DNA from: Naasia sp.
GTDB lineage: Bacteria > Actinomycetota > Actinomycetes > Actinomycetales > Microbacteriaceae
Assembly (NCBI GenBank): GCA_025463675.1
Contig: JAODAX010000023.1
Location: forward strand, 1 to 58,515
Length of the DNA: 58,515 nt
Reading direction: 5' to 3'
The translations under genes and the position numbers were made by a program. A model generated the notes under the pieces. The model was not told where the DNA came from. It saw only the letters and a program-made list of their open reading frames with translations, and ran no database searches. Shown here piece after piece: positions 14,420-58,515 of this stretch; position 1 is the stretch's first letter; each line of letters begins with the position of its first letter.

Positions 14420-14473
14420 CGGACCAGCCTATCCGGGCACGATCGGCGTCCCGCCGCCGACTCCGAGGCGCGC

Positions 14474-14511
14474 GTAACACCCCCGAAACAAAGGCGACAC
14501 AGGAGGGAAAC
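14474..14511 (+). promoter_or_regulatory. GlnR-like operator upstream of glnA (four half-sites)
   Basis: GTAAC (14474-14478), six bases, GAAAC (14485-14489), six bases, GACAC (14496-14500), six bases, GAAAC (14507-14511). This matches, with one weaker third half-site, the gTnAc-n6-GaAAc-n6-GtnAC-n6-GAAAc pattern described for streptomycete GlnR. The spacing of 11 bases places all half-sites on one helix face. It ends just before the -10 element at 14522. Confidence 0.65.
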
Positions 14512-14521
14512 TGGGTCTGCG

Positions 14522-14527
14522 TAGGGT
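14522..14527 (+). promoter_or_regulatory. glnA -10 element TAGGGT
   Basis: TAGGGT lies 11 bases after the last GlnR half-site, so that half-site covers the expected -35 region. This fits activation by a regulator replacing a weak -35 box. The leader would be about 50 bases. Confidence 0.4.
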
Positions 14528-14583
14528 CGGACCGGCTGCATTCGCTGCCAGATCCATCACGCAACCTACGGAGTCCCTCCTCT

Positions 14584-16020
14584 ATGTCGCATCCGAAATT
14601 CAGTGATTCATCCGAGGTGATCAAGTTCATCAAGGACACTGACGTCAAGTTCCTCGACATCCGGTTCACCGACCTCCCGGGCGTGCAGCAGCACTTCAAC
14701 ATCCCGGCGGCCACGGTGGACGAGGACTTCTTCTCCGTCGGTCAGCTCTTCGATGGCTCGTCCATCCGCGGCTTCGCGAACATCCATGAGTCCGACATGC
14801 AGCTGATCCCGGACATCTCGACGGCGTACCTCGACCCGTTCCGCACCGAGCGCACCCTCATCTGCGTCTTCGACATCTACAACCCGCGCAACGGCGAGAT
14901 CTACGCGAAGGACCCGCGCCAGGTCGCCAAGAAGGCGGAGAAGTACCTGGCGTCGACCGGCATCGCCGACACCGCGTTCTTCGCCCCCGAGGCCGAGTTC
15001 TACATCTTCGACGACGTCCGCTACGAGGTCACCCAGGGCTCCAGCTTCTACAAGGTGGACTCCTCCGAGGCCGCCTGGAACAGCGGCCGCGAGGAGGACG
15101 GCGGCAACCTCGCCAACAAGACGCCCTTCAAAGGCGGCTACTTCCCGGTGAGCCCCGTCGACCAGCACGCCGACCTCCGCGACGAGATCGTGCTCCGCCT
15201 GATGGCCGCCGGCCTCGAGGTCGAGCGCAGCCATCACGAGGTCGGCACCGCCGGCCAGGGCGAGATCAACTACAAGTTCGACACGATGGTCCACGCCGCG
15301 GACGACATCCTGAAGTTCAAATACATCGTCAAGAACACCGCCAACCTGTGGGGCAAGACGGCCACCTTCATGCCGAAGCCGCTCTTCGGCGACAACGGCT
15401 CGGGCATGCACACCCACCAGTCGCTGTGGGACGGCGGCAAGCCGCTGTTCTACGACGAGTCCGGCTACGGCGGCCTCTCCGACATCGCGCGCTGGTACAT
15501 CGGCGGCCTCCTCCGTCACGCGCCCGCGGTGCTCGCCTTCACCAACCCGACGACGAACAGCTACCACCGTCTCGTCCCGGGCTACGAGGCGCCCGTGAAC
15601 CTGGTCTACTCGGCCGGCAACCGGTCCGCGGCGATCCGCATCCCGATCACGGGCACCAACCCGAAGGCTAAGCGCGTGGAGTTCCGCGCGCCCGACGCCT
15701 CGGGCAACCCGTACCTCGCGTTCGCCGCGCAGCTGATGGCGGGCCTCGATGGCATCAAGAACCGCATCGAGCCGCACGAGCCGGTCGACAAGGACCTCTA
15801 CGAACTGCCGCCCGAGGAGGCGAAGCTCATCCCGCAGGTGCCGGGCTCGCTCGACGCCGTCCTCGACGCGCTCGAGGCGGACCACGAGTTCCTCACCGCC
15901 GGCGGCGTGTTCAGCCAGGACCTCATCGACACCTGGATCTCGTACAAGCGCGAGAAGGAGATCAAGCCCCTCGCCGCTCGTCCGCACCCGTTCGAGTACG
16001 AGCTGTACTTCGGGGTGTAG
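14584..16020 (+). CDS. glnA: Glutamine synthetase type I (adenylylation-regulated)
   Basis: The 478-residue enzyme makes glutamine from glutamate, ammonia and ATP as a cytoplasmic dodecamer. Full-length GSI-beta features are present: the FDGSSIRGF motif, the metal-binding EAEFY and [10 protein letters not shown] segments, NRSAAIRIP, and the adenylylation site Y406 in DLYELPPEE. That Tyr is the target of GlnE, whose gene lies 2 kb away. ATG at 14584 gives the normal N-terminus. Control is visible at two levels: the upstream GlnR-like operator and the modifiable Tyr. A strong terminator follows the stop. Confidence 0.97.
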
Positions 16021-18142: not shown

Positions 18143-21100
18143 TCAGCGGTCTCCGGGGGTAACCCTGCTGGGCGCACCGTAGAAGAGCCGCTCGAAAACG
18201 GTGCGGGAGCGCCGGGCCACCCGCAGGTACTCCTCTTCGAGGATCGCGGCGGAGCCCGCCGGGTAGCCGAGGAGGCGCGCGATCGCGTCGAGCTGGCGGT
18301 GGTCGGCGGGCAGCAGGTCCGCCGTCCTGTTGGTCCAGATCGTCATCGCCGAACGCAGCCGGGAGGCGAGCAGCCAGGCGGCGCGCAGCCGCTCCGCGTC
18401 GTGCACGTCCAGCAGGCCGGCCGCGGTCGCCGCGGTGAGGGCCTGCATCGTCGACTGGGTGCGCAGGCCCGGCACCGCGTGGGCGTGCCGCATCTGCAGC
18501 AGCTGCACCAGCCACTCGACGTCGCTGAGGGTGCCGCGCCCGAGCTTCAGGTGGCGTGCCGGGTCGGCGCCCTGCGGCAGCCGCTCGTTCTCCACGCGGG
18601 CCTTGATGCGCTTAATTTCGCGCACCTCCGCCTCCGGCACCTCCTGCGGGTAGCGGATCCGGTCAGCGAGGGCGGTGAAGTCGGCGACCAGGTCGTGGTC
18701 ACCCGCGACCCCGCGAGCCCGGAGCAGCGCCTGCGCCTCCCAGGTGAGCGACCAGCGCGCGTAGTACGCCTCGTACGAGCGCAGCGACCGGACGACCGGG
18801 CCGTTCTTGCCCTCCGGCCGGAGGCCGAGGTCGAGCTCCAGCGGCAGCCGGTGGTCGGTCGTCAGCCGCGTGATCTCGGCCACGATGTGTTCCGCCTTCG
18901 TCTGGGCGGAGTCGTTGGTCATGCCGGCGATCGGGCGGTGCACGTACATGATGTCGCTGTCCGAGCCGAAGCCGAGCTCGGCGCCGCCGTACCGGCCCAT
19001 CGCGATGATCGCGATCTCCGGCCACGGCCCGTCGTCACGGCGGATGCTGCGCAGCACCCCGGTCAGCAGCGCGCTCGTGACGCAGGCGAGCGCCTGACCG
19101 AGTTCCTCGATGCGCGCGACGCCGAGGATGCCGGCGAGGGCGAGCCGCAGCACCTCGCGCCGGCGCGCAGCACGCAGCGCGGTCGCCGCCGAGTCCCGGC
19201 TGTCGTGCCGGAGGACGATCGCGCTCGTCTCCTCCCGCAGGGCGTCCCAGCTACGCGGGCGCAGGTCCGCATCGTTCTCGAGCCAGCGCACCGCCTCCGG
19301 GTAGTTCTCGAGCAGCTCGACCACGTAGCGGGAGCCGGACAGTGCGACCGTGAGGCGATACGCCGCCTCCTTCGAGTCGCGCAGCATGCGGAGAAACCAG
19401 TGCGCGTCGCCGAGCGATTCGCTGATCCGCCGGAACGCGAGCAGCCCGCCGTCCGGGTCCGGCCCCTCCGCGAGCCACTGCAGGATCACCGGTAGCAGGG
19501 TGCGCTGGATGGCGGCCCGCCGGGACACCCCGACAGTGAGCGCGGCGATGTGGCCGAGCGCGCCGCGGGGGTCGCGGAAGCCGATGGCGGCGAGTCGCGC
19601 CTCCGCCTGAGCACTGGTGAGGGCGAGCTCCGGGCCGGGCATCCGCGCCACCGCGGACAGCAGCGGGCGGTAGAAGAGCCGCTCGTGCAGGCTGCGCACC
19701 GCCACCTTCGTGCGCAGCCAGCGCTCGCTCAAGTCGTCCGCCGTGCCGGCGAGGCCGGTCGCCCGAGCGAGGACGCGGAGCCGGTCCTCGGCGCGCGGCA
19801 TCAGGTGGGTGCGGCTCAGCCGGGCCAGCTGCAGCCGGTGCTCGAGCAGGCGCAGCAGCTTGTACTCCTCCGCGAACTCCGCGCCCTCCGCGCGGCCGAT
19901 GTAGCCCGCCTCCGCGAGGGCGTCGAGCGCGGTCAGCGTGGCGCGCTCCCGGACGCTCGGGTCGGAGCGCCCGTGCACCAGCTGCAGCAGCTGCACCGTG
20001 AACTCGATGTCGCGCAGCCCGCCGGCGCCGAGCTTCAGCTGCACGTCGGCCTCGTCAGCGGGGATGTTGGCGGTGACGCGCTCCCGCATCCGCTGGACCT
20101 GCTCCACGAAGCTCGGTCGCTCCGCGCTCGACCACACCTTCGGCGCGACCGCTTCGACGTAGCGCTCCCCCAGCTCCCGGTCGCCCGCCATCGCGCGGGC
20201 CTTGAGCAGGGCTTGGAACTCCCAGTCGCGCGCCCACCGCTCGTAATAGGCCAGATGGGAGTCGAGGGTGCGGACAAGCGCGCCGTTCTTGCCCTCCGGG
20301 CGCAGGTTCGCGTCGACTTCCCATAGGGGCGGCTCCACCGAAATCTCGTGGATGCCGCGCATGGTGAGCATGGCGAGCCGGGTGCCGACGGCGACGGCGC
20401 TGTCGACTCCCAGGTCGGTGCCTTGCGCGGGCTCCGCGACGAAGATCACGTCGACGTCGCTCACGTAGTTGAGTTCTCGCGCCCCCGCCTTGCCCATCCC
20501 GATGATCGCCAGGCGGGTGGCCGCGATCTGCTCGGGCGTGAACCGGCCGGGGCCCGCTCCCGGGCAGGCAGCGTCCGCCCGGGCCACGGCGAGAGAGGCG
20601 TCGAGTGCCCCGGCAGCGAGATCGGCGAGCATCCCCGTAACCGGCTGCACGGCCTGCAGGGGCTCGGCCTGCGCGAGATCCCATGCGGCGAGGCGCAGCA
20701 GGTGCCAGCGGTAGCGGGCGCGTAGCGCGATCCTTCCCTCATCTCCGCCGAGAGCCGCCACCCCAGCGTCGTCCGCGCGGACGGAACCGAGCAGGTCGGC
20801 GCGCAGCTGCTGGGCGGTGGGCACGGCGTCGAGCGGCCGGGCCAGCGCCTCGAAGCCCTCCGGCCGGCGCATCAGGTACTCGGCGAGGCCGGTCGACGCG
20901 CCGAGGACGAGCAGCAGCCGGCGTGTGGTGCCCGCCGGCTCCAGCGCCGCCGTCACCTCGGCCGCGTGCCGCCGCGCGAGGCGCAGCAGCGCGTCGAGCG
21001 CCTGATCGGGGTCCGCGACGGTGCCGAGCAGCGGCAGCACCGACTCCGCGGAGGAGCCGGTGATCGCCTCCAGCTCGATGAGGCGGTCGCGGACGGTGCC

Positions 21101-21157
21101 GAGTTCGGCGAAGCCGAGGCGCGCCAGCTCGCTGAGGGTGGTCAGCTCGCGACGCAT
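18143..21157 (-). CDS. glnE: Bifunctional glutamine synthetase adenylyltransferase/deadenylylase
   Basis: The 1004-residue enzyme is close in length to the mycobacterial protein. It attaches and removes AMP on glutamine synthetase Y406. Two nucleotidyltransferase domains are visible: an N-terminal one with MGKAGARELNYVSDVDVIFV, and a C-terminal one with MGRYGGAELGFGSDSDIMYV, each followed by helical linker regions with RIKARVENERLP and RMRERVTANIP. It is transcribed after glnA2 with a 25-base gap, so the two form an operon. Its target glnA lies just beyond the sulfatase remnant in the same block. All key Asp residues are present. Confidence 0.95.
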   Translation of the reverse strand: MRRELTTLSELARLGFAELGTVRDRLIELEAITGSSAESVLPLLGTVADPDQALDALLRLARRHAAEVTAALEPAGTTRRLLLVLGASTGLAEYLMRRPEGFEALARPLDAVPTAQQLRADLLGSVRADDAGVAALGGDEGRIALRARYRWHLLRLAAWDLAQAEPLQAVQPVTGMLADLAAGALDASLAVARADAACPGAGPGRFTPEQIAATRLAIIGMGKAGARELNYVSDVDVIFVAEPAQGTDLGVDSAVAVGTRLAMLTMRGIHEISVEPPLWEVDANLRPEGKNGALVRTLDSHLAYYERWARDWEFQALLKARAMAGDRELGERYVEAVAPKVWSSAERPSFVEQVQRMRERVTANIPADEADVQLKLGAGGLRDIEFTVQLLQLVHGRSDPSVRERATLTALDALAEAGYIGRAEGAEFAEEYKLLRLLEHRLQLARLSRTHLMPRAEDRLRVLARATGLAGTADDLSERWLRTKVAVRSLHERLFYRPLLSAVARMPGPELALTSAQAEARLAAIGFRDPRGALGHIAALTVGVSRRAAIQRTLLPVILQWLAEGPDPDGGLLAFRRISESLGDAHWFLRMLRDSKEAAYRLTVALSGSRYVVELLENYPEAVRWLENDADLRPRSWDALREETSAIVLRHDSRDSAATALRAARRREVLRLALAGILGVARIEELGQALACVTSALLTGVLRSIRRDDGPWPEIAIIAMGRYGGAELGFGSDSDIMYVHRPIAGMTNDSAQTKAEHIVAEITRLTTDHRLPLELDLGLRPEGKNGPVVRSLRSYEAYYARWSLTWEAQALLRARGVAGDHDLVADFTALADRIRYPQEVPEAEVREIKRIKARVENERLPQGADPARHLKLGRGTLSDVEWLVQLLQMRHAHAVPGLRTQSTMQALTAATAAGLLDVHDAERLRAAWLLASRLRSAMTIWTNRTADLLPADHRQLDAIARLLGYPAGSAAILEEEYLRVARRSRTVFERLFYGAPSRVTPGDR

Positions 21158-43629: not shown

Positions 43630-44736
43630 TCAGCCGAGGTGGCGCTCCTTCGAACCGACGTACTCCGAGAGGGGCCGGATGAGGGCGTTCGCCTCGAGCT
43701 GCTCCATGATGTGCGCGGTCCAGCCGGTGACGCGGCTCGCGACGAACAGCGGCGTGAAGAACTCGGTGTCGAAGCCGAGGATCGCGTAGGCGGGGCCGCT
43801 CGGGTAGTCCAGGTTCGGCTTGATGCCCTTGCGCTCGTCCATCGCCTGCTCGAGCGTCGTGTACAGCTGGAGCAGATCCTCGCGCTGGTGCTCGGCGATC
43901 AGCCGGTCGAGGGCCGCCTTCATGGTCGGCACCCGGGAGTCGCCGCTCTTGTAGACCCGGTGACCGAAGCCCATGATCGTGCGCTTCTCAGCGAGGGCGG
44001 TGTCGAGCCAGTCGGCGGCGCGGTCGGCGGTGCCGATCTCGTCGAACACGTGCATGACCGCCTCGTTCGCTCCGCCGTGCAGCGGGCCCTTCAGCGCGCC
44101 GATAGCCGCGACGACCGCCGAGTGCAGGTCCGCGAGGGTGCTGGTGACGACGCGGGCGGTGAACGTGGAGGCGTTGAAAGAGTGCTCGGCGTAGAGCACC
44201 ATCGAAATGCGGAGGACGTCGGCCGCGACGTCGGTGGGCTCCTCGCCGAAGGTCATCCAGAGGAAGTTGCGGGAGTAGTCGAGGTCGTCGCGCGGCTCCA
44301 CCGGCTCGAGGCCGCGGCGGCGGCGCTGGTCGTAGGCGACGATCGCGGGCAGCGCCGCGAACAGGCGCAGCGACTTCGCGAGGTTGGCCTCGCGGGAGGC
44401 GTCGGCGACCTGTGGGTCGGCGGCACCCAGGACACTCACCGCGGTGCGGACGACGTCCATCGGATGCGCGGTCGTCGGGGTGAGGTCGATGGCTGCGCGG
44501 ACGTTGTTGCCGAGGGCGCGCTGCGACCGCTCCTGCCGCGAGAACTCGGCGAGCTCGTCGGCCGTGGGCAGCTCGCCGTGCCAGAGCAGCCAGGCGACGT
44601 CCTCGAAGGAGCAGTGCTCCGCCAGCTCCTGCACCGGGTAGCCGCGGTAGAGCAGCGAGTTCGTCTCCGGGTTCACCTTGGAGACGGCCGTCGTGTCGAC
44701 GACGACGCCGGCGAGTCCCTTCTTGATCTCCGCCAT
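43630..44736 (-). CDS. prpC: 2-methylcitrate synthase
   Basis: The 368-residue enzyme joins propionyl-CoA and oxaloacetate to 2-methylcitrate, the first step of the methylcitrate cycle. GPLHGGANEAVMHVF, GFGHRVYKSGDSR and the C-terminal catalytic Asp region FDTEFFTPLFVASR are conserved. Residual citrate synthase activity is usual. ATG at 44736 follows GGAAGGA and gives the normal N-terminus MAEIKKGLAG. It is the last of the prpDBC genes, separated from prpB by a hairpin. Confidence 0.93.
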   Translation of the reverse strand: MAEIKKGLAGVVVDTTAVSKVNPETNSLLYRGYPVQELAEHCSFEDVAWLLWHGELPTADELAEFSRQERSQRALGNNVRAAIDLTPTTAHPMDVVRTAVSVLGAADPQVADASREANLAKSLRLFAALPAIVAYDQRRRRGLEPVEPRDDLDYSRNFLWMTFGEEPTDVAADVLRISMVLYAEHSFNASTFTARVVTSTLADLHSAVVAAIGALKGPLHGGANEAVMHVFDEIGTADRAADWLDTALAEKRTIMGFGHRVYKSGDSRVPTMKAALDRLIAEHQREDLLQLYTTLEQAMDERKGIKPNLDYPSGPAYAILGFDTEFFTPLFVASRVTGWTAHIMEQLEANALIRPLSEYVGSKERHLG

Positions 44737-44772
44737 GGAGTTCCTTCCGCTTCTGGTGTGTACGTTCCGGCC

Positions 44773-44800
44773 CCATGTGACCGTTGTGCCGGTCACATGG
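44773..44800. promoter_or_regulatory. Intercistronic hairpin between prpB and prpC
   Basis: Perfect 11-bp inverted repeat, CCATGTGACCG and CGGTCACATGG with a 6-base loop, in the 84-base gap. It lacks a T run, so it may be an RNA processing or stabilising hairpin or an operator rather than a terminator. Confidence 0.6.
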
Positions 44801-44820
44801 CGCCGCACCGTGCACATGAA

Positions 44821-45729
44821 TCAGGCGCGATTGTCGCGCAGGTCGAAGGTGTAGATGCCGGCGTCGAAATCGGAGTAGCCGGCGTAATCGACCAGTTCGT
44901 AGAGGCGGGCGCGGGTCTGCATCGTCGGCACCTCGCCGGCGAGGGTGCCCTCGGCTGCGAGGGCGTCGAGCCCCCGCTCCGCAGCCCCCATCGCCAGCCG
45001 GAGCAGCGACACCGGGAAGATGACGATGTTGATGCCGAGGGCGGCGAGCTGCCGGGTCGTGAACAGCTCACTCTTGCCGAACTCGGTCATGTTCGCCAGC
45101 ACCGGCACGTCGACGGCGGCGCGCACCGCGGCGAACTCCTCGAGCGAGGCCATCGCCTCCGGGAAGATGGCGTCCGCCCCCGCGTCGACCAGCATCTTGG
45201 CCCGGTCGACGGCGGCCGACAGCCCCTCGATCCCGCGGATGTCGGTGCGGGCCATGATGAGGAAGTTCGGGTCGCGGCGTGCCTCCACGGCGGCCCGGAT
45301 GCGCTTGAGGGCGGTGTCATCGTCGACAACCTGCTTGCCGTCGAGGTGGCCGCAGCGCTTCGGGTTGACCTGGTCCTCGAGGTGCATGCCGGCGAGGCCC
45401 GCGTCCTCGAGGATCTGCACCGACCGGGCCACATTCATCGGCTCGCCGAAGCCGGTGTCGGCGTCGACGAGGGCCGGCAGGTCGGTGACCCGCGCGATCT
45501 GACCCGCGCGCTGCGCGACCTCGGTCAGCGTGGTCAGGCCGATGTCGGGCAGCCCGAGGTCGGCGCTCAGCACCGCGCCGGAGATGTACACGCCCTCGAA
45601 GCCCTTGTCCTCGATGAGGCGGGCGCTCAGCGGGTTGAACGCGCCGGGCATGCGGATCAGCTCGCCGCTCGCCAGGCGGGCGCGGAACGCCTCCCGCTTG
45701 GCCGCGGGTGCCACCTTCGAGTGCAGCAT
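44821..45729 (-). CDS. prpB: 2-methylisocitrate lyase
   Basis: The 302-residue isocitrate-lyase-superfamily enzyme splits 2-methylisocitrate into pyruvate and succinate. It has DADTGFGEPMNV, the active-site Cys in KRCGH and metal-binding Asp/Glu residues. The start ATG shares one base with the prpD stop (TGATG), so the two are coupled. Together with prpD and prpC it detoxifies and uses propionyl-CoA from odd-chain fatty acids, branched amino acids or cholesterol-like compounds. Confidence 0.94.
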   Translation of the reverse strand: MLHSKVAPAAKREAFRARLASGELIRMPGAFNPLSARLIEDKGFEGVYISGAVLSADLGLPDIGLTTLTEVAQRAGQIARVTDLPALVDADTGFGEPMNVARSVQILEDAGLAGMHLEDQVNPKRCGHLDGKQVVDDDTALKRIRAAVEARRDPNFLIMARTDIRGIEGLSAAVDRAKMLVDAGADAIFPEAMASLEEFAAVRAAVDVPVLANMTEFGKSELFTTRQLAALGINIVIFPVSLLRLAMGAAERGLDALAAEGTLAGEVPTMQTRARLYELVDYAGYSDFDAGIYTFDLRDNRA

Positions 45730-47225
45730 CAGAGGATTCCCTTCGGCCCTGTCGGCAGACCCGACGCGGTGACCGTCAGCGCGCCGAGTTCGAGCGCGCC
45801 CAGCTCCGGCAGCCGCTGGGCGACGTCGAGGAAGCGCTCCACCTCACGGGGCTCGAGCACGCCATCGGCGAGCTCGCGGAACTTCCGCACGTAGTCGGCG
45901 CGGGCGAACGGCCGGGCCCCGAGCGGGTGCGCGTCCGCGACGGCGATCTCAGCCGTGACGGTCGAGCCGTCGGTCAGCGTGATCTCCGCGCGTCCGCCGA
46001 ACGCCTTCTCCGCCGGGTCGTCCGAGTGGTACCGGCGGGTCCACTCCGCGTCCTCGGCGGTCGTGACCTTGCGCCAGAGGTCGACGGTGTCGGGGCGCGC
46101 GGCCCGCTCCGGCGCGTAGGAGTCGACGTGGTGCCAGCGGCCGTCCTGCAGGGCGACGGCGAAGATGTACGGGATCGAGTGGTCGAGCGTCTCCCGGCTG
46201 GCCGCGGGATCGTACTTCTGGGGGTCGTTCGCACCGGAGCCGATCACGTAGTGGGTGTGGTGGCTCGTGTGCAGGACGACGGACGCGATGCTCGCCGTGT
46301 CGCGCAGCTCGGGCCGGTCGCGGCCGAGGGCACGGGCGAGGTCGATCCAGGCCTGCGCCTGGTACTCGGCCGAGTGCTCCTTGGTGAAGCTCGCGAGGAT
46401 CCCGCGCTTGGCCTCGCCCCGCTCGGGCAGCGGCACCTCGTAGCGGGCGTCCGGGCCGTCGAGCAGCCAGGCGATGACCCCGTCCTCGCCTTCCCAAATG
46501 GGCGAGGGGCTGGTCTGGCCGCGCATCGCCCGGTCGACCGCCTCGATGGCCATCTTCCCGGCGAAGGCCGGCGCGTACGCCTTCCAGGTGGAGATCTCGC
46601 CTTTGCGGGACTGCCGGGTCGCCGTGGTCGTGTGCAGCGCCTGCCCGATCGCCTGGAAGATCGTCTCCTCCGTCAGGTCGAGCAGGGTGCCGAGGCCCGC
46701 GGCGGCGCTGGGCCCGAGGTGCGCGACGTGGTCGATCTTGTGCTTGTGCAGGCTGATCGCTCGAACGAGGTCGATCTGGATCTCGTAGCCGGTGGCGAGC
46801 GCCCGCACGACCGCCGCGCCGTCCTTGCCCGTGTGCTGGGCGACGGCGAGGATCGGCGGAATGTTGTCGCCCGGGTGCGAGTAGTCGGCGGCGAGGAACG
46901 TGTCGTGGAAGTCGAGCTCGCGGACGGCGACCCCGTTCGCCCACGCCGCCCATTCGGGCGCGACACGGGCGGCAGAACCGAACACGGTCGCGCCGGGGGC
47001 TCCGCCGCGCGCCTCCGCCTGCGCCCGGGCAGCGACGACGGGCGCCCGCCCGAGGGATGCGGTGGCGACGGCGGCGTTGTCGATCACCCGGTTGATGATC
47101 ATGTCGACCACCTCCGCCTCCACCTCGACCGGATCGGTGGCGACCTCCGCGATCTTCCACGCCAGCTGCTCCTCCCGGGGAAGGGCCTCGTCGCTGCGAT
47201 AGGCGCGGACGGGGTGATTCTTCAT
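45729..47225 (-). CDS. prpD: 2-methylcitrate dehydratase (PrpD family)
   Basis: The 498-residue MmgE/PrpD-family enzyme removes water from 2-methylcitrate to give cis-2-methylaconitate. Conserved regions include [31 protein letters not shown], and the C-terminal [16 protein letters not shown] at 47225 gives the usual start [11 protein letters not shown]. It is first in the operon prpD-prpB-prpC. A likely -10 TAGACT lies at 47355-47360. No prpR-like or RamB-like regulator gene is next to it. Confidence 0.93.
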
Positions 47226-47354
47226 GAGGCGCCTTCCTGGGCGGGCGGAGCACCCGGTGCCGACCGGGGCGGGGTGGCGTGGGGCCGTGCGGGTGGACGC
47301 ACCTCGCGCCTGCGCGGGCGGACGCGGCGTGGTCACCCGTCACCGGCGCACCCG

Positions 47355-50505: not shown

Positions 50506-51180
50506 ATGACGGATCCGTCGGGAATCAGCGGGCACTCCCGCGACCTCGAGACGCATGCGGATGCCCCCGTCGCCCCCCGACGGGCCGTCGGCGAGCGGTC
50601 CGATGGCTCGATCCAGCACCTGCGGCGGCGGAGCACCCCGCCACCGCCGCCTCCGCGCCCCCACATGTCCGACAGCACCCCGCCGCCGGTGCCCAAGATC
50701 CAGGGCCCGAGCGGGGCGCTGCTCATCATCCGGTACCTGTGGGTCCTCAGCTTCCTGGTCGGGCTCGGCGCCATCGCGATCGCCTTCCTCTCGCGGGCCC
50801 CGGTCATGGATGCCCTCCTCGACACGATCGACGAGGTCGCGCCGGAGTATTCGACGCAAGTCGTCACGACTGCCGCCTCCATCGTCTTCTGGACGATCCT
50901 CGTGGCCCTCGGTGTCATCATCGGCCTGGAGTCGCTGATTCTTTCCGGGCTCCTGAGCCGACGGCTCGCCGCACGGCTCGGCATGCTGCTGCTCCTCGTC
51001 CTGCACATCGGCGTGGCGCTCATCGCCGACGCGTTCCTCGCCAGCGGCGACAATGGCTTCTACCTGCGCATCTTCCTCGCCGCACAGCTGATGCTTGCGG
51101 CGGCGGGCCTTGTCGTAGCCGTGCTAGACCGCGGACCGCGCCCCGTCGAGGGCCGACGGAGCGCCGATCCCCCGTCCTGA
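50506..51180 (+). CDS. Integral membrane protein with Pro-rich N-terminus
   Basis: The 224-residue protein has a polar N-terminal part of about 65 residues with a PPPPPPRPH run, then four hydrophobic helices between residues 70 and 210 (ALLIIRYLWVLSFLVGLGAI; ASIVFWTILVALGVIIGLES; LLLLVLHIGVALIADAFL; AQLMLAAAGLVVAVL). It resembles uncharacterised actinobacterial membrane proteins. Its last 57 bases overlap the convergent IniC-like gene, so strong expression of both together is unlikely. Function unknown. Confidence 0.7.
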   Translation: MTDPSGISGHSRDLETHADAPVAPRRAVGERSDGSIQHLRRRSTPPPPPPRPHMSDSTPPPVPKIQGPSGALLIIRYLWVLSFLVGLGAIAIAFLSRAPVMDALLDTIDEVAPEYSTQVVTTAASIVFWTILVALGVIIGLESLILSGLLSRRLAARLGMLLLLVLHIGVALIADAFLASGDNGFYLRIFLAAQLMLAAAGLVVAVLDRGPRPVEGRRSADPPS

Positions 51181-52692
51181 CACCGGCTGGCCGTCGCCGC
51201 GGTTCGAGACCGAGCTCGACGCCCCGCCCGGGTCGAGGATCGCCTCCGCGCTGCGGACGACCGTGCGGCACAGTTCCGCGGTCCACCGATCGGTGAACGG
51301 GTTCTCGGCCCGGGTGCGCCACCGCCGGACGGCATCCGCCGCCGCGGCGCGCACCTCGCCGGGCGTCGCGTCATCGGCCAGGCGCAGTCGGACGGCGGAT
51401 TCGACGCCGTCGCAGCCGAGGAGCCGCTCCGCCTCGCCGAGCACTTCCGGCTGCAGCCCGCGATCCTCGGTGCGAAGCGCACCGAGGAGCGCGAGCTCGC
51501 GCAGTCCGTGGTCGCCTGCGGTGATGCGTTCTGCCGCCGCCCGAAGCCGCTCGCCGCCCTGCGGGGGGCGCTCATCGAGGAGTGTGAGCACCGCACCGAG
51601 TGCAGTGCGTGCCTTGAGCTCCTCCGCACGGGCCTGGAATCGCGTCGCTACTGTCCGGCGCAGCTCCTCCAGGCCGCTCCGGCGCACGAGTTCGGCGGAC
51701 AGCTCGGCCGCGCCGGCGAAGCCGCCTCGCTGAAGAGCGGCGCCGAGCCGTATCCCGAACATCCCGAACCGACCGAGCAGCCGACTCCGTGCCTCGGCGG
51801 TCAACGCCACTGGAGCATCGTCGCGGCAGAACCTGTCCGCCGAAACGAGGAGGCGTTCGCGCGCAGCACGGTCGTGTCGCGAGAGCTCGGCGAACGCGTC
51901 GCGCTCGTCCTGCCGGAGAGTGCGCGCCGACTGCGCCAGGAGCCCGGCCACCGGCAGGACGTCGAGCACGAGCCGACGCAGCTGCTCGTCCTTCCGGTAG
52001 CGGTCCGCGATGATCTTGGCCGATAACAGCGCGTCGATGCGACCAGCCCCCACCTCGTCGGCCCGCGACAGCACGGCGACCGCGTTGACGAGCCCGGATC
52101 GACCGGCCGCCGTGTCCCGGAAGGCGCTGAGGAAGCCGACATCCGACGCGTGCAGGTGCCTCATCAGATAGATGACGGCGTCGGCGGCCGAGGGTGCATT
52201 CTCGGGTGTCAGGAAGCGCATAGCGGCCGCCGACACGTCGGCGGAGGCCGAGGCGATGCCCGGTGTGTCGATGAGGGTCAGGTCGCGCAGGCTCGCGAGT
52301 GGCCATTCGACCTCGAGCCGATCGACCTCTTCGACGGGAATGCCGCCCAGGTCGAGGAGAAGCCGTCCGCCGCTGCGGCGCACCGGGAGGTTCACCGCCC
52401 GTGCACCGATCCCGCTCCGCCGGTGCACGGTGACGCGCGGAGTCAGCCCGAATCTGTACCAGGTCACCACTCGGGTGCACTCGCCCGCCCCGGTCGGCGC
52501 GATCTCCTCCCCGAGCAACGCGTTCAGCAGGGTGGACTTGCCCGCCTTCACCATGCCGGCGATTGCGACGCGCATGGGTTCGTCAAGGCGGCGATCCGCT
52601 GCACGCAGGGCCGCAGTCGCCGTCGGGTCCGAGGCATACGCGCGCAGTGCGTCCTGAAGAAGCGCACGCACATCGCCGCTGCGCGCCTCCAT
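51124..52692 (-). CDS. IniC-like dynamin-family GTPase
   Basis: The 522-residue soluble GTPase has G1 GMVKAGKST (about residues 46-54), G3 LIDTPG, G4 SRAD (VLSRADEVG) and a long C-terminal helical part. This organisation is that of bacterial dynamin-like proteins. It starts five bases after the IniA-like stop, and shares order with mycobacterial iniC: B, then A, then C. The lack of a transmembrane hairpin suggests it works with the membrane-bound partner, as a heteromeric membrane-remodelling pair. Its 3' end overlaps the convergent membrane protein by 57 bases. Confidence 0.82.
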   Translation of the reverse strand: MEARSGDVRALLQDALRAYASDPTATAALRAADRRLDEPMRVAIAGMVKAGKSTLLNALLGEEIAPTGAGECTRVVTWYRFGLTPRVTVHRRSGIGARAVNLPVRRSGGRLLLDLGGIPVEEVDRLEVEWPLASLRDLTLIDTPGIASASADVSAAAMRFLTPENAPSAADAVIYLMRHLHASDVGFLSAFRDTAAGRSGLVNAVAVLSRADEVGAGRIDALLSAKIIADRYRKDEQLRRLVLDVLPVAGLLAQSARTLRQDERDAFAELSRHDRAARERLLVSADRFCRDDAPVALTAEARSRLLGRFGMFGIRLGAALQRGGFAGAAELSAELVRRSGLEELRRTVATRFQARAEELKARTALGAVLTLLDERPPQGGERLRAAAERITAGDHGLRELALLGALRTEDRGLQPEVLGEAERLLGCDGVESAVRLRLADDATPGEVRAAAADAVRRWRTRAENPFTDRWTAELCRTVVRSAEAILDPGGASSSVSNRGDGQPVSGRGIGAPSALDGARSAV

Positions 52693-52697
52693 CTCCG

Positions 52698-54629
52698 TCA
52701 GGCCTGCCCGATCGCGGGACGCGCTGACGCGGCCGGAATCACGGTCGGCGGTTCACCGGTCGCCGCGACAGGGCCGCCAGGAGTCGCGTCGACCAGCAGA
52801 GAGCGGCGCAATCCCTCGGTGTGCTGCAGTGCCCGTCGCAGCTCACTGATCCGCGCCTCACGTTGCTGGGAGTACAGGCCCGCAGCCTTCTGCGCGGCGA
52901 CCACCGAATCTTTGAGCGAGCGCGACTGCTCCTCGGCGATCGCCGAGAAATGGTCGCGGATTGTTCGCTGCACCACGCGGAGCCTGTCCTTCAGCTGCTT
53001 GCCGACCTGGAAGACGACGTCGTCGATCAGCCGGTGCACCAGGTTGCGCGCGTCCGTCTGCCGACGCTTCAGCCGGGCGTCCCGATCGTCCTTGAACGCC
53101 TTCCGGCCGATCAGCACGCCCGCGGCCACCGAGAAGGGGTTCACGAGCCCCAACCCGATGAGACCGGTCACGAGCCCCACCATGAGCACCCCGCCGTACG
53201 AGCCGCGCATTCCGATGAGGAGCTTCTGCATGGGGCCGAGCCGGCCCGGATCGAGGTCGTCGAGCAGCTCCACCGGTTCCAGCACGTCATCGGCGCTGCC
53301 CACCTCGAGCCCGGGCAGCGGGACCTCGGACTCGGCGAAGTTGCGCGCCACCTCCTGGGAGAGCCACTCGGAGCGCTCGCTCGTCCAAACGAAGGTGTCG
53401 GAGACGGCGGAGGCGATCCGCTGCTCCAGCCAGTCGGTGAGCTGATCCCAGACGGGACCGGGGTCGCCGTCGCTGATGGCGCTGTCCGCTTCCCGCTGGA
53501 TGATGCGCATCCTGTCGCGCAGGTCGTGCTCCATATCGGAGATGAGGTCGGTCACTCCGTCGTTGAGCGTCACCTGCCACTTCGACGACCGGCGTCTCAG
53601 CTCGTCGGTGCGATCCTTCGCGGCTTCGAGCTCCGCCACCACGCCGGGAGTTCCGGCCGGGTGCAAGAGCGCGCTCAGTTCCGACTGGAGGGCCAGCGCG
53701 AGCTGCTCCGTCGTCGAGCGAAGGTCGTGCACGGCGGAGCGCCGCTGGAGGACGTCGATGCGGCCGACTACCTCCCGGCGCAGGTAGCCGATCAGCTCGG
53801 GAAAGCCTGATTCGGCGTTGAGCTCCTTGTCATTCAGTCGGCCGGCCTGCAGCCGGAGCTCGGAGGACACCGGCAGGAGCGGCACGCCAGGGAGGAGGAG
53901 ATCCAGGTGGCCGCGGTCGAGTTCCGCGATCCGACGCCACTCCGGGTAAAGGTCGGTCTTGGTGAGGACGCAGGCGATGTTGGGCACCATGCGCGCCGCC
54001 TGCCGGAGGAAGGTCAGCTCGGGCTCGGTGAACTCCTGCGACGCGCCGGTGACGAAGAGCAGTGCGTCCGCCGTGGGCAGGGCGGCGAGGGTGGTCAGCG
54101 TGTGCGGCGAGTTGAGGCCGCCGACGCCGGGCGAGTCGATGATCTCCAGCCCGTCCGCGAGCAGCTTGCGCGGGAGGAAGACTTCGGCACCGGCCAGCTT
54201 GCGACGGTTGCCCGGGTTGCCACGCTCGGACACGTGTGCCGGAAGCTCCTCGAGTGGCACAGGCCGCCGCTCGATCGGCGGCTCCGAGTCTGCGCTGCCC
54301 TCCTGTACCGTCCCGGCCTGCGTGGCAAGGACCACGGCCCGGGGCTCAGCGCCGTACCGAACGATGGTCGGGACCGAGGTCGCGATGTCGTCGTCCACCG
54401 GGCACACTTGGGCGTTCACGAGGCCGTTGATCAGCTGGCTCTTGCCCTGCTTGAACTCGCCCACCACGATCACGCGGATGCTCGGCTGGCTGAGCCGCTG
54501 CTGCGTGTGCTGGAGGCGTCGTCGGAGATCTTCACGGCCGCCCGCTGTCGCGAGCTCGATCCCCCGCTCGACGAGCTCGGACAGGTCGGCCAATTGCGTC
54601 TCCTTCGACGGTGGGAAGAATCCTGACAC
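52698..54629 (-). CDS. IniA-like membrane dynamin-family GTPase
   Basis: The 643-residue GTPase has G1 VVGEFKQGKSQLINGL (about residues 57-72), G3 IIDSPGVGG, G4 LTKTD, and a helical middle domain. A hydrophobic hairpin at about residues 473-508 (VLMVGLVTGLIGLGL, then AAGVLIG) should insert into the membrane, as in dynamin-like IniA, and is followed by a long basic coiled-coil tail. In mycobacteria IniA takes part in tolerance of cell-wall-acting drugs and binds and deforms membranes. It follows the IniB-like gene after a 115-base gap containing a strong hairpin. Confidence 0.85.
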   Translation of the reverse strand: MSGFFPPSKETQLADLSELVERGIELATAGGREDLRRRLQHTQQRLSQPSIRVIVVGEFKQGKSQLINGLVNAQVCPVDDDIATSVPTIVRYGAEPRAVVLATQAGTVQEGSADSEPPIERRPVPLEELPAHVSERGNPGNRRKLAGAEVFLPRKLLADGLEIIDSPGVGGLNSPHTLTTLAALPTADALLFVTGASQEFTEPELTFLRQAARMVPNIACVLTKTDLYPEWRRIAELDRGHLDLLLPGVPLLPVSSELRLQAGRLNDKELNAESGFPELIGYLRREVVGRIDVLQRRSAVHDLRSTTEQLALALQSELSALLHPAGTPGVVAELEAAKDRTDELRRRSSKWQVTLNDGVTDLISDMEHDLRDRMRIIQREADSAISDGDPGPVWDQLTDWLEQRIASAVSDTFVWTSERSEWLSQEVARNFAESEVPLPGLEVGSADDVLEPVELLDDLDPGRLGPMQKLLIGMRGSYGGVLMVGLVTGLIGLGLVNPFSVAAGVLIGRKAFKDDRDARLKRRQTDARNLVHRLIDDVVFQVGKQLKDRLRVVQRTIRDHFSAIAEEQSRSLKDSVVAAQKAAGLYSQQREARISELRRALQHTEGLRRSLLVDATPGGPVAATGEPPTVIPAASARPAIGQA

Positions 54630-54702
54630 ACAGCGAATCCAGCGGGAACGGGTATCCCACTGGATGCCGGGCGGCCGCGCGTGGGTGTGGCGCTGCGGGT
54701 CC

Positions 54703-54734
54703 GCCGGGCGGCCTGTCGGGGCAGGCCGCCCGGC
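54703..54734. terminator. Intra-operon hairpin between IniB-like and IniA-like genes
   Basis: Perfect 13-bp stem GCCGGGCGGCCTG/CAGGCCGCCCGGC with a 6-base loop, 11 bases after the IniB-like stop. No T run follows. It could act as a partial terminator or as an RNA 3' stabiliser that gives more of the first gene product than of the GTPases. Confidence 0.55.
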
Positions 54735-54744
54735 GCCGTTCGGG

Positions 54745-55719
54745 TCAGTTCACCTCGTAGTGCGGCTCCAGTTCGACCTCGAGTTCCTCCTCGTTGTAGG
54801 AGTCGTCGTTGTATGCGTCCTCGTTGCCGATGTCCTCGAATTCGTTGGCGACGACAGACTCCTCGTTGCCGAAGTTGGAGTCCTCGTTGCCGATGGCCAC
54901 GTCCTCGACATTGACGCGGACGTCGGTGTCGATTTGCTGGCCATTGTTGAGGTCGTCACCCGCGAGGTTCGTGTCGCCCGAATTGCCGGAGTCGGTGATG
55001 GTGCCGGTGTTGACGGGGCCGCTGTTTCCGGAGATGGTGTCGCCGGAGTTGCCCGAGTCGGTGATGGTGCCGGTGTTCACGTCGCCGCCCGCGTCGATGT
55101 TGTCCCCGGTGCCGGTGTTCACGTCGCCGCCCGCGTCGATGTTGTCCCCGGAGCCCGTGTTGACGCTGCCGCCGCCCGAGTTGATCGAGGTGTCCGCGGA
55201 GGCGTCGACGCTGCCGAAACCGGTGGCGACGTTGTTGTGGTCACCGGAGACGACGGTGGTGTCGACGTCGATGTCCTGGTCGAGGTCCAGGTCGTCGCCC
55301 ACCAGGAAGCTCTGGTTGAGCGACTGATCGAGGATCGTGTCGCGGTCGTCCAGCGACGTGTAGGAGAAATTGTTGACGATGCTCGTCAGCCGCTCCACCG
55401 CGGCGGCGTGATCGGAGCCGCCGGAGCCGCCAGTTCCCCCTGTGCCGCCGACTCCGGCAGCGACGCCGCCGGCCCCGGCGACTGCGCCGCCGTCTCCGCC
55501 GGTCACCGTGTTACCTCCGGTGTGGTACTCGTTCCTGTTCCCGTTGATCGGGGCGTAGTCGAGGAGCAGGGGCATGATCGCGTCCGTGTCCTCGAGGCAC
55601 AGGTTGTGCACGCCATGCGACTCGAGGTACGTGTCCGGGTCGTCGAGGAACGCTGTGGTGGCCTCCGGCTCGCCGAGCAGGCTGAGGAGGAATTGCAAGA
55701 GGGGCGTTGTGACTGCCAT
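54745..55719 (-). CDS. IniB-like repetitive Asp/Asn/Gly-rich protein
   Basis: The 324-residue protein has a compact N-terminal domain (MAVTTPLLQFLLSLLGEPEA to about residue 60) like that of IniB proteins, a Gly/Ala-rich linker (70-102), and a long low-complexity tail. The tail holds perfect repeats: GDNIDAGGDVNTGT at 191-204 and 205-218, and NTGTITDSGNSGDT at 215-228 and 237-250. It is extremely acidic, especially the last 40 residues (EEELEVELEPHYEVN end). There is no signal peptide, one Cys (41) and no membrane helix. ATG follows AAGGAG. A structural or scaffold role next to the dynamins is inference. Confidence 0.75.
   Translation of the reverse strand: MAVTTPLLQFLLSLLGEPEATTAFLDDPDTYLESHGVHNLCLEDTDAIMPLLLDYAPINGNRNEYHTGGNTVTGGDGGAVAGAGGVAAGVGGTGGTGGSGGSDHAAAVERLTSIVNNFSYTSLDDRDTILDQSLNQSFLVGDDLDLDQDIDVDTTVVSGDHNNVATGFGSVDASADTSINSGGGSVNTGSGDNIDAGGDVNTGTGDNIDAGGDVNTGTITDSGNSGDTISGNSGPVNTGTITDSGNSGDTNLAGDDLNNGQQIDTDVRVNVEDVAIGNEDSNFGNEESVVANEFEDIGNEDAYNDDSYNEEELEVELEPHYEVN
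55066..55149 (-). repeat. Two 42-bp direct repeats in the IniB-like gene
   Basis: Repeats at 55108-55149 and 55066-55107 encode GDNIDAGGDVNTGT twice in tandem and are nearly identical in DNA, so the length of this region can change by slippage or recombination without frameshift. Confidence 0.8.
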
Positions 55720-55805
55720 GGGGTGACTCCTTCGGGAGAGGGTTCCGGGATGCCCCGGTGAGGACCACCCTGCCGCCGCCCGATTCGCCGGGCATCGGCG
55801 GCGAG

Positions 55806-55858
55806 CCCCCTACTGGCCCGACCCCGGAGGGGGTTCGCGGGGGCCGACCGTTAGGGGG
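55806..55858. promoter_or_regulatory. Inverted repeat in the IniB-like promoter region
   Basis: CCCCCTA (55806-55812) and TAGGGGG (55852-55858) form a perfect 7-bp inverted repeat with ACCCCGGAGGGGG in the middle. It spans the gap between the regulator stop and the IniB-like gene and partly covers the regulator stop codon. A regulator-binding site is a reasonable guess, unproven. Confidence 0.35.
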
Positions 55859-58460
55859 AGGCGGGGCCGGGCAGTCCGCCGGAGCCTTCGGGGCCCTCAT
55901 CGAGCGCGATCCGCAGCTGCGTGAGCAGATCGGACCGGCTCTGCGCGGACAGCCGCTGCCGAATGCGGGAGACGTGGTGCTCCACTGTGCGCGGCGAGAT
56001 GAAAATGACCTCGCCGATCTCCTTGTAGTTCTTCCCTTCAAGCACCAACCGGGCGACATCCCGTTCTCGGGCGCTCAACAGCTCGCCGCGGCCATCGGCC
56101 GCACGAACCGCGACTGACGCGGGCGACGAAGACCGCGCTGCGGCGTCCGGCTGCGGGGATGCAGGGTGGTTTCGGCTCGCGGCCGGGGGGGCCGGGGCTG
56201 CGTGCAGGTCTCGCGCGCACGCGAGCAGCCGTGACATGTCACGGCGGTCCTCCGCGTGCGCCGCCGCATGCCCGGCGAGGCGAGACCCGTCCCAGGGCAA
56301 GCCGACCCCGACGAGCGAACGCGCCGCCACCTCCACGGCTGCCGCTTCGAACCCGCCGCGAAGCACGGACACCCAGGCGCGACCTGCGCCCGCGAGCACC
56401 GAGGAGAGCCGGCTGGTGGGCGCCCCGGCAGTCAGAGCCGCCACCTGCGGTCCAAGACGTCCGGGCTGCTTGCTGAGGATCGCGGCCTGCACGGCCGCCC
56501 AGTGCAGGGGTGCCGCCCACAGCGGCGGGTCGCCCAACTTGGCGAGGAGGGCGAACGCCGCCTCGGTCTGGAAATCGACGTGAACAGAGTCGCGAAGGCG
56601 GGCGCCCGCGACGGCGAGCTCCGCGAAGGGCAGCAGCGAGTAGAGGTCGACCCCCACATAGAGCACCTCCTGACGAGCCGCCTGCCAGGCACGCAGCAGG
56701 CCCGCTGCGTCGTCACCGCGACGCGCGATCGCTACCTCGAGCGCCAGTCGAAGCATCTGTTCCCGCGGCTGCAGGGGTCCGGACTGCCGGGCCTCCTCCG
56801 CTGCGGCGCGCGCCGTGTCCGGCCTGTCGGCCTGCATGGCCGCCCATGCGCGGGCGAGCAGCAGCCCGGGTCGGGCAGGCAGGCCGCCCTGCTCGCCGGC
56901 GAGAGCGGCGTCGAGCAGCGACTCTGCGGTGCGCAGCTCCCCCGCTCCGAGCGCGAGGGTGGCTGCGAGGACTGCGGGCGCGACGGGCAGCGGCAGGGTG
57001 AGCCCTGAAGAGGTGAACAGGTCGGACGCGCGTACGAGGGTCGGCAGCGCCCGCGGAGCCGCAGCTCCCAGCGAGTCGCGCACCCCTTCCGCCATCATCC
57101 ACACCGCCGTCGATGCGAGGGTCGGGGCACCGTGTCCGCCGGCCGCTGCCAACATCTCGTCAGCGGCGAAACGGTCGCCGACCCCGTACAGGGCGAGCGC
57201 GGCGAGCGGAGCCGATGCCCCCACCGTGTCAGGCCCCCGCCAGCGGTACCCGTCCGCGGCGCCGGTCAGCATCCCGCGTGCGGCCCAGAGCGCGCCCGCG
57301 ACGTCGGTGGCGCGACGTGCCTGCTCAGGATCCGGGGTCGAGAGGGCGGGAGCGAGAGCTCGCCACGCTGCGTCCGCGTTCCCGGCGCCCCACTCCGCCT
57401 GGCCCAGACGGGCGGCGATCTCCTCCTCGCCGGCGCCCGCGGCCAGTGCGTCCGCATAGAGCCCAACTGCCGTATCCGGTCGGGTCTCGAGCACGTGGTC
57501 GGCGGCCGAGGTGAGGCAGCTCGCGACGCGGGGGTCCTGCAATCCGCCGCGCGCGAGCGTCCGACCGACCCGCTCGAGTGCACGGCCGGATTCCGCCAGC
57601 GCGTCCACCAGGGAACGCTGCGCGGCGCGGACACGGTGCAGCGGCGTGGTGCGGAAGACCGCGTCGCGGAGTAGTGGGACGACACTCCCGTCGGGTAGCA
57701 GGAGGCCCGCATCTCGCGCGTCGTCGACCAGCCGGTCGACCGCCGCCGGGTCGTCGGCCGGGAGGAGTGCTCCGCCCGCGCTCGCGTCGAAGCCCAGCGA
57801 GAGGGCGAGCAGCAGATCTTGCTGGGGAGTTGGCAGTTCCGCGAGCTCGTAGCCGAGGCGGTCACCGACCTGCCACGGCACCACCGGGTTCACGGCCCGC
57901 CGGGTGTTCGCCGTGAGCACCCGGTGCACCAGCCACGGCAGCCCGCCGGTCGCCTCGGCGAGCCCCTCGAGGAAGGCCGGCGACGCCGCCGCCCCATCCC
58001 GCGCAGCCGCCGCTGCGAGACCGTCAAGGCCGAGCGGGCCGAGCACCGTGGGGTCGCCATGGCGCGCGAGCGCCTCGACGAGCCGTCGCAGCGCTGGCCG
58101 GTCGGACCGTGCTCGGTAGGCGACCAGCAGGCTGGGACCGTCGCTGGCTGCGAGTTCCCGCAGCTGTTCAAGTTCCTGATCGGCCAGGTCGTGGGCGTCG
58201 TCCACGATCAGCACGGAAGCTGTCGTGGGCTCGGCGGAGCCGTGGTCGCGAGCACGGGCGACGGCGACTCCGGCGGCCGACCAGCAGACCGCAGCATCGT
58301 CGAGGAGCCGCGACTTGCCCGTGCGTCCTGGCCCTGTCACTCCGGCGACCAGCCGCCGTGACGGCGCGGACTGGATCCGGTCGAGGAGCCATGCAGCGGT
58401 GCCATGGACACCGGGGCCGAGGAGAGGCGTCGGGTGCGCCTCCGAGCGGGCGGTCGGCAT
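55851..58460 (-). CDS. Large ATP-binding LuxR-family regulator (IniR-like)
   Basis: The 869-residue protein has an N-terminal AAA/STAND-type ATPase (Walker A GPGRTGKSRLL about residues 43-53, Walker B SVLIVDDAH near 83-90), a long helical TPR-like middle with many Ala/Leu repeats, and a C-terminal LuxR-type helix-turn-helix (LLSARERDVARLVLEGKNYK to TQLRIAL). It directly precedes the IniB-like gene with the same orientation, the position that the iniBAC activator (IniR) takes in mycobacteria. It probably senses a cell-wall or metabolic signal and activates the operon; the ligand is unknown. Confidence 0.8.
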   Translation of the reverse strand: MPTARSEAHPTPLLGPGVHGTAAWLLDRIQSAPSRRLVAGVTGPGRTGKSRLLDDAAVCWSAAGVAVARARDHGSAEPTTASVLIVDDAHDLADQELEQLRELAASDGPSLLVAYRARSDRPALRRLVEALARHGDPTVLGPLGLDGLAAAAARDGAAASPAFLEGLAEATGGLPWLVHRVLTANTRRAVNPVVPWQVGDRLGYELAELPTPQQDLLLALSLGFDASAGGALLPADDPAAVDRLVDDARDAGLLLPDGSVVPLLRDAVFRTTPLHRVRAAQRSLVDALAESGRALERVGRTLARGGLQDPRVASCLTSAADHVLETRPDTAVGLYADALAAGAGEEEIAARLGQAEWGAGNADAAWRALAPALSTPDPEQARRATDVAGALWAARGMLTGAADGYRWRGPDTVGASAPLAALALYGVGDRFAADEMLAAAGGHGAPTLASTAVWMMAEGVRDSLGAAAPRALPTLVRASDLFTSSGLTLPLPVAPAVLAATLALGAGELRTAESLLDAALAGEQGGLPARPGLLLARAWAAMQADRPDTARAAAEEARQSGPLQPREQMLRLALEVAIARRGDDAAGLLRAWQAARQEVLYVGVDLYSLLPFAELAVAGARLRDSVHVDFQTEAAFALLAKLGDPPLWAAPLHWAAVQAAILSKQPGRLGPQVAALTAGAPTSRLSSVLAGAGRAWVSVLRGGFEAAAVEVAARSLVGVGLPWDGSRLAGHAAAHAEDRRDMSRLLACARDLHAAPAPPAASRNHPASPQPDAAARSSSPASVAVRAADGRGELLSARERDVARLVLEGKNYKEIGEVIFISPRTVEHHVSRIRQRLSAQSRSDLLTQLRIALDEGPEGSGGLPGPASP

Positions 58461-58462: not shown

Positions 58463-58515
58463 TCAGACGGCGACCACCGGCGGGAGATCCTCCGCCGGGG
58501 GCGAGGGAGCGGGCT
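58463..58515 (-). CDS. End of an upstream minus-strand gene (partial)
   Basis: A frame running off the window edge ends PPAEDLPPVVAV with TGA at 58465-58463, two bases before the regulator ATG. If real, the regulator is not the first gene of its operon. The fragment is too short to identify. Confidence 0.3.
   Translation of the reverse strand, partial: PAPSPPAEDLPPVVAV

Follow-up and report, generated by a model that had tools for sequence, protein, structure and literature searches.

Gene content of the locus

The DNA analysed here (the window, 58,515 nt) is the entire contig C32 (JAODAX010000023.1) of a draft Naasia sp. genome (GCA_025463675.1; 2.08 Mb, 122 contigs, 68.8% complete), and near its end it carries four genes, iniR, iniB, iniA and iniC, whose products are related to the regulator and the three further proteins of the mycobacterial iniR-iniBAC region (Table 1). 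A sequence-only reading had described them as a complete iniBAC-like locus in a non-mycobacterial actinobacterium, arranged as in mycobacteria. All four open reading frames (ORFs) lie in one direction as described, with gaps of 131 bases between iniR and iniB, 115 between iniB and iniA, and 5 between iniA and iniC. However, "complete" is wrong, because the contig ends 55 bp before the iniR start and the gene usually found upstream in relatives is cut off. The gene order agrees with the mycobacterial one, but the orientation does not: iniR is co-directional here and followed by a single IniB gene, whereas in 18/18 loci of genus g63 it is divergent and followed by two IniB-domain genes. This genus is termed mycobacterial-type because Pks13 passes its cut-off only in its three genomes among 16 tested. 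A divergent iniR and a second IniB gene are regarded here as a layout trait that does not define the iniBAC system. The same reading also overlooked an Hsp70-like gene of relatives, a convergent membrane gene, an array of CCCCTA boxes and a hairpin between iniB and iniA.

The regulator, recognized earlier as an 869-residue ATPase-LuxR protein, carries a Walker A motif (GPGRTGKS, residue 43) and a LuxR/GerE helix-turn-helix (HTH) domain at residues 794-846. A linked IniR-type regulator is thereby present: NCBIfam IniR (NF038181) matches across residues 25-854 with 368.7 bits and, since this does not reach the equivalog cut-off of 750, the protein is filed as an IniR homologue and not as an equivalog. 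When three parts of the protein were compared, the HTH was 55-75% identical to that of 14 relatives, and the ATPase and middle parts were 15-51% identical; outside the HTH, identity to four mycobacterial-type IniR proteins was 28-36%.

The predicted IniB protein has a net charge of -58, and its claimed N-terminal homology to IniB holds by a small margin, with 40.9 bits for IniB_NTERM (NCBIfam NF038175, cut-off 40) and 44.7 bits in the genome search. The AlphaFold2 model contains confident helices only at residues 4-55 (the N-domain) and 102-117, the remainder being low-confidence, disordered acidic repeats, and 221/324 residues have a predicted local distance difference test (pLDDT) score below 50, in line with the unfolded acidic partner proposed earlier. 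A PDB search with this model for the fold of the N-domain gave a single meaningless match (E 9.4), and carries no inference because the model is mostly low-confidence. No paper on the IniB N-terminal domain came up in the open-licence PubMed Central literature searched.

IniA matches the crystal structure of M. smegmatis IniA (PDB 6j72) over residues 17-600 of 643 (E 1.1e-130), the next best family being BDLP (E 9.7e-13). It scores 75.3 bits for Dynamin_N, contains the motifs GEFKQGKS, DSPG and TKTD, and has one hydrophobic stretch at residues 478-496 (Kyte-Doolittle (KD) hydropathy 1.99), where the sequence-only reading had placed a membrane hairpin. IniC, the second GTPase, is soluble by the same measure (best 19-mer KD 1.36), also as predicted; it matches Dynamin_N (PF00350, 51.3 bits, cut-off 27), contains GMVKAGKS and DTPG, adjoins iniA and is 41-43% identical to three mycobacterial-type IniC proteins. 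It has the GTPase domain and helical bundle of the dynamin superfamily. Its model (mean pLDDT 71.8) best matches mitofusin 1 (5gnt; Z 15.8, root-mean-square deviation (rmsd) 5.8, 277 aligned), followed by IniA 6j73 (Z 12.7, rmsd 6.0, 250 aligned). Foldseek ranked IniA and BDLP first with TM-scores of 0.25-0.28, and the domain arrangement of the model is therefore untrustworthy.

Comparing the profile of IniA with that of IniC gave 99.2% probability across 235 columns, in the GTPase domain only. In a tree of 42 IniA and 41 IniC sequences (midpoint-rooted, quickly built, long branches flagged), each set lies on one side of a branch with support 100. The window IniA groups with those of Naasia sp. 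SYSU D00057 and SYSU D00948 (Shimodaira-Hasegawa-like approximate likelihood ratio test 99), while the placement of the window IniC was not resolved. Whether the two GTPases belong to unrelated dynamin branches, a question raised by the sequence-only reading, is thus answered in part: each of them shares a clade, IniA or IniC, with its counterparts from the mycobacterial-type pairs, in a tree that included no outside dynamin family. With an IniB N-terminal domain, near-full-length IniA homology and an IniC homologue next to IniA all present, common descent with mycobacterial iniR-iniBAC is supported by these sequence comparisons.

Table 1. Features of the iniBAC locus and its margins in the window (aa, amino acids).
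Feature	Position	Strand	Basis
IniR-like STAND ATPase/LuxR-type regulator, 869 aa	58460-55851	-	NCBIfam IniR NF038181, GerE HTH
IniB-like acidic protein, 324 aa	55719-54745	-	IniB_NTERM match, AlphaFold2 model, 29-member family alignment
IniA-like dynamin GTPase with membrane hairpin, 643 aa	54629-52698	-	PDB 6j72 match, Dynamin_N, tree
IniC-like soluble dynamin-family GTPase, 522 aa	52692-51124	-	Dynamin_N, identity, structure matches, tree
Putative IniR operator, inverted CCCCTA boxes 45 bp apart	55807..55857	-	Box 1 covers the iniR stop codon
iniB-iniA gap with 14-bp perfect hairpin stem	54630..54744	-	Stem search
Convergent proline-rich four-helix membrane protein, 224 aa	50506..51180	+	Overlaps iniC 3' end; homologue at 74/80 named loci
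Possible 3' end of truncated Hsp70-like membrane gene	58463..58515	-	Sequence and frame; 16 codons, too few for homology proof

Distribution and linked membrane genes

Of 60 relatives searched, eight carry the IniB domain and 11 carry IniA; within the genus, 4/8 genomes have the IniB domain, and the system is therefore dispensable. Among 394 genomes of the class, with the window's own genome included in the matches, the IniB domain occurs in 40 (above the cut-off in 37), IniA (E<=1e-60) in 48 and IniR (E<=1e-60) in 38, of which 18, all of genus g63, pass the IniR cut-off. The families co-occur tightly: all 38 IniR genomes have IniA at this threshold, 37/38 have IniB above the cut-off (the exception being G065), and IniR is present in 37/37 genomes with IniB above the cut-off. 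In ten class genomes IniA occurs with no IniR, and its scores there are weaker.

The matches listed for named genomes came from Naasia, Agromyces, Agreia, Arthrobacter and relatives, Georgenia, Microbacterium and Propionibacteriaceae. In the 80 named loci considered below, which are the best among the matches listed in one scan of named genomes, iniA and iniC are always present and all four genes occur in 75, the other five reaching a contig end. A non-mycobacterial iniBAC locus, as proposed by the sequence-only reading, thus exists but is not rare; NCBIfam already holds models for IniB_NTERM and IniR, and the locus, which belongs to the iniBAC stock outside the mycobacteria, is not new as such. 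Two layouts occur in the named loci: either all genes run in one direction, as in the window, or the iniA-iniC pair is convergent with iniR-iniB. Unusual ORFs were also seen in individual loci. In L065 (11557-14442), L066 (2013-6674) and L072 (8972-11905), the last distant from any iniA, an IniB-domain protein of great length (961, ~1550 and 977 aa, respectively) contains Asn/Gly/Leu repeats. Four loci of the convergent layout (L058, L067, L069 and L070) carry extra acidic Asp/Asn/Ser-repeat ORFs without the IniB N-domain beside iniA; those of L070 lie at 2327-3223 and 3306-4202, and neither Pfam nor NCBIfam gave a match to the first. In L012, L081 and L107, iniR, iniA or the Hsp70-like gene is split into overlapping frames, through sequencing error or decay.

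Pks13 exceeded its cut-off in 3/16 iniBAC genomes, all of g63, and in none of the other 13, this draft included. Weaker matches, below the cut-off, appeared in 12 further genomes and in most of the control genomes, and only the cut-off was therefore used. The arabinosyltransferase family PF04602 was rejected as a marker of the mycobacterial wall, as it was not clean (5/16 genomes, with G002 and G006 of the present genus among them). Since genomes that have no Pks13-level mycolate synthase also carry iniBAC, the trehalose trigger known from mycobacteria may not apply to the non-mycobacterial loci.

In 70/71 testable named loci, nine of the 80 being too short upstream, iniR is preceded by an Hsp70-like gene in the same direction. 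The distance is at most 300 bp in 68/70 and otherwise 605 and 1226 bp (the latter in L107, where the gene is broken), and 44/70 lie at 0-60 bp between model matches. In mycobacterial-type loci the gene stands between iniR and the IniB-domain genes in 15/18 cases. Five of the encoded proteins have the HSP70 nucleotide-binding domain (PF00012, 46-152 bits, cut-off 20.6), their best Pfam stretch stopping at profile position 372-374 of 599, which is the end of the ATPase domain, and the motifs DxG and DLGGG, involved in phosphate binding, are invariant or nearly so in 18 aligned sequences. In 81/95 proteins (loci read twice included), hydropathy peaks in a 19-mer with KD>=1.6 whose first residue lies at 330-520, and a proline-rich tail follows. 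At the window end, the last 16 codons before the iniR start read PAPSPPAEDLPPVVAV and end in a stop codon at 58465-58463, 2 nt ahead of the iniR ATG. This peptide resembles the proline-rich tail, so that the window end could encode the 3' end of the truncated gene. A search of the draft for the rest of the gene gave a single match, with 31% identity, on contig C71, which is perhaps DnaK itself.

That the Hsp70-like gene is a neighbour of unrelated function, outside the response, is suggested by its absence beside iniR in L097 and in 3/18 mycobacterial-type loci that keep IniR and the boxes. However, its near-constant presence and mostly close spacing in the named loci, its retention in both gene arrangements and its occurrence near two of the five IniA-IniC pairs examined in genomes without IniR make this alternative rather unlikely. 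A dnaK-like gene beside M. smegmatis iniR is mentioned in PMC5760070 (cited here and below from part of its text); in the open-licence PubMed Central (PMC) literature searched, we found no report of an Hsp70 linked with IniR and iniB, and nothing on an Hsp70-like transmembrane protein with a dynamin in Actinobacteria.

At the other end of the locus, the convergent gene encodes a protein with a proline-rich N-terminus and four hydrophobic 19-mers (KD 2.32-2.51), without a Pfam match up to E 0.1. A homologue stands tail-to-tail with iniC (3' end, opposite strand) in 74/80 named loci, as judged with a profile built from four sequences, among them that of L016, which duplicates locus L102.

CCCCTA boxes and the iniB-iniA hairpin

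The hexamer CCCCTA/TAGGGG occurs at 6.92/kb in the 260 nt upstream of the IniB domain and at 0.097/kb elsewhere in the window part and the 80 named loci, a difference of about 70-fold, and 14 loci of other families gave 7.89/kb versus 0.085/kb. It is the commonest of the 30 permutations of its letters, with 144 occurrences; the runner-up, the overlapping ATCCCC, has 66, and the median is 19. Boxes were found in 66/80 upstream regions of iniB, but in 3/76 of iniR, 13/69 of the Hsp70-like gene, 1/81 of iniA and 0/81 of iniC. By layout, the iniB upstreams with a box number 52/55 in co-directional and 14/25 in convergent loci; all 36 mycobacterial-type iniB upstreams have one, and 35/36 have at least two. 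Across 107 iniB upstreams the preferred spacings are inverted at 45 bp (22 times), direct at 9 (16 times) and direct at 23 (15 times). The window contains six copies versus 7.96 expected, two of them in the 131-bp iniR-iniB gap, inverted and 45 bp apart. The spaced inverted pair was found in 5/8 genomes, once each and at iniB; in the present draft its single occurrence is at the iniB promoter. In addition, boxes precede a second Hsp70-like gene downstream of iniR in four mycobacterial-type loci (L193, L194, L196 and L200), which suggests its membership in the same regulon.

We read the array as a shared IniR operator, predicted from its position and conservation and from the HTH being the best conserved of the three IniR parts compared. 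The boxes might instead be the site of a sigma factor or another regulator, or the iniR stop codon (CCC TAA) retained by descent: box 1 of the window contains that codon, and 14/80 iniB upstreams have no exact box. This is improbable, however, since mycobacterial-type loci, in which iniR is divergent, have boxes before both IniB-domain genes, and the four loci just named have them before the second Hsp70-like gene; moreover, no box lies upstream of iniA in five IniA-IniC pairs without IniR, and chromatin immunoprecipitation in M. tuberculosis placed IniR directly upstream of iniBAC (PMC5760070). The HpoR palindrome in the BCG promoter differs from the boxes (PMC13413693, part of the text). No prior description of the array before iniB was found in the open-licence PMC literature, and earlier promoter work could hold a similar element. 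A second motif, CCGATG, occurs about 10 bp downstream of an inverted box 76 times in the 107 iniB upstreams, mostly 80-110 nt before the IniB domain and often with a TAnnGTT-like element about 27 bp later; the two are possibly promoter -35 and -10 elements.

In the iniB-iniA gap, 37/75 loci (three of them read twice) have a perfect stem of at least 9 bp, and the mean best stem is 7.6 versus 1.0 in mononucleotide shuffles. The hairpin sequence varies between groups and its position is constant. RNA-seq suggests that IniB is more abundant than IniA and IniC (PMC5760070), which attenuation at this hairpin would explain.

Elsewhere in the window, glnA at 14338-16020 (646.8 bits, cut-off 429) and the glnE adenylyltransferase gene at 18143-21157 (1267 bits, cut-off 625) indicate an ordinary chromosomal setting. 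A row of prpC-, prpB- and prpD-like genes (methylcitrate cycle) lies on the minus strand at 43630-47336, judged by eye from translations.

Proposed function and comparison with known systems

Taken together, the sequence evidence makes the locus probably a counterpart, outside the mycobacteria, of the IniR-IniBAC envelope-stress regulon. Mycobacterial iniBAC induction requires IniR, which also suffices for it, binds before iniBAC and is activated by trehalose (PMC5760070), and IniA has membrane fission activity (PMC6715688, likewise cited from part of its text). In the proposed mechanism, envelope damage would be sensed by the ligand region of IniR itself and/or by the Hsp70-like protein via an outward proline-rich tail; IniR would assemble on the CCCCTA boxes and activate iniB, with the hairpin holding IniB output above that of IniA and IniC. 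With its hairpin inserted in the cell membrane, IniA would act together with IniC to bend, cut or reseal that membrane, and disordered, acidic IniB may act as a scaffold or spacer.

Several observations weigh against an assignment to this regulon. The regulator scores far below its curated cut-off and IniB barely above its own; the IniB domain is missing in 4/8 genomes of the genus. Exact boxes are missing from 3/55 co-directional and 11/25 convergent iniB upstreams and present before the Hsp70-like gene in 13/69 loci, and the stem is shorter than 9 bp in 38/75 loci. A reversed control of the spaced box pair was found in 3/8 genomes; the pattern alone is therefore weak evidence, and it is the location of its matches that counts.

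The dynamin pair might also perform ordinary membrane work at division or the septum, in the way reported for DynA/DynB of Streptomyces, with the regulator merely tuning it. IniA-IniC and DynA/DynB are both tandem dynamin pairs in actinobacteria (PMC6715688), and the five further IniA-IniC pairs examined come from genomes without IniR. However, the linked regulator, the concentration of boxes at iniB and the absence of the system from half of the same-genus genomes searched, which is at odds with housekeeping, leave this with a low probability, a little below that of the alternative origins of the boxes. Anti-phage defence of the Eleos (LeoA/LeoBC dynamin) type, despite a patchy distribution and PADLOC LeoA and LeoBC profiles that match both GTPases (E 6.9e-16 to 4.3e-9), was rejected as highly improbable, given that the IniA match is far stronger (E 1.1e-130, in the PDB set, a different database), that IniB, the four-helix protein and the L077 Hsp70-like protein have no PADLOC match, and that the locus has a stress-type regulator and a conserved promoter.

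Within the preferred envelope-stress reading, four features make this variant worth study: the membrane Hsp70-like gene linked to iniR, the membrane gene convergent with iniC, the CCCCTA array and the iniB-iniA hairpin; save for the dnaK-like gene beside M. smegmatis iniR, they are undescribed in the open-licence PMC literature searched. The Hsp70-like protein is possibly a sensor or a coat chaperone, both bold readings. In eukaryotes, Hsc70 serves coat turnover and offers a model for the latter role. A more far-reaching proposal, which we hold only tentatively, is that IniBAC is an old actinobacterial envelope-repair system with the membrane Hsp70-like ATPase as its overlooked core: the outward tail would sense the wall, the ATPase domain would gate IniR or load and unload an IniA/IniC-IniB coat, and mycobacterial trehalose sensing would be a later addition.

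iniBAC is a classic reporter of cell-wall drug stress in mycobacteria, and research on it faces the questions of what IniB does, what IniA and IniC target and how IniR is switched. With a version in fast-growing, harmless genera of soil type such as Arthrobacter and Microbacterium, such questions can be tested without a pathogen. Should the boxes be the IniR operator, the regulon would be readable in any genome; if the Hsp70-like protein belongs to the response, it would be an overlooked candidate sensor or coat chaperone, missed because some mycobacteria lack it beside iniR, to judge by 3/18 loci here and by the text of the published locus figure. The occurrence of iniBAC where no Pks13-level mycolate synthase is present also means that a mycolate-cycle sugar need not have been its original trigger.

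Among known systems, we know of no IniB or IniR accompanying Streptomyces DynA/DynB; the resemblance, by description, lies in a tandem dynamin pair in an actinobacterium (PMC6715688). The Hsp70-like protein of relatives shares with DnaK/Hsp70 an ATPase domain with conserved phosphate-binding motifs, but continues after it with a hydrophobic helix at about residues 370-480 and a proline-rich tail. E. coli MalT uses arrays of asymmetric boxes, as found in IniR loci, although with its own box sequence and regulon. Like IniR, it combines a STAND-type ATPase, a helical sensor region and a LuxR-type HTH (PMC5760070). Mycobacterial iniR-iniBAC differs in its divergent iniR and in the second IniB-domain gene between, and 13 iniBAC genomes of the window's order, this one included, lack Pks13 above the cut-off; however, the locus shares with it all four families, the B-A-C order, the boxes before iniB, the IniR HTH, and a conserved IniB N-domain followed by a low-complexity remainder.

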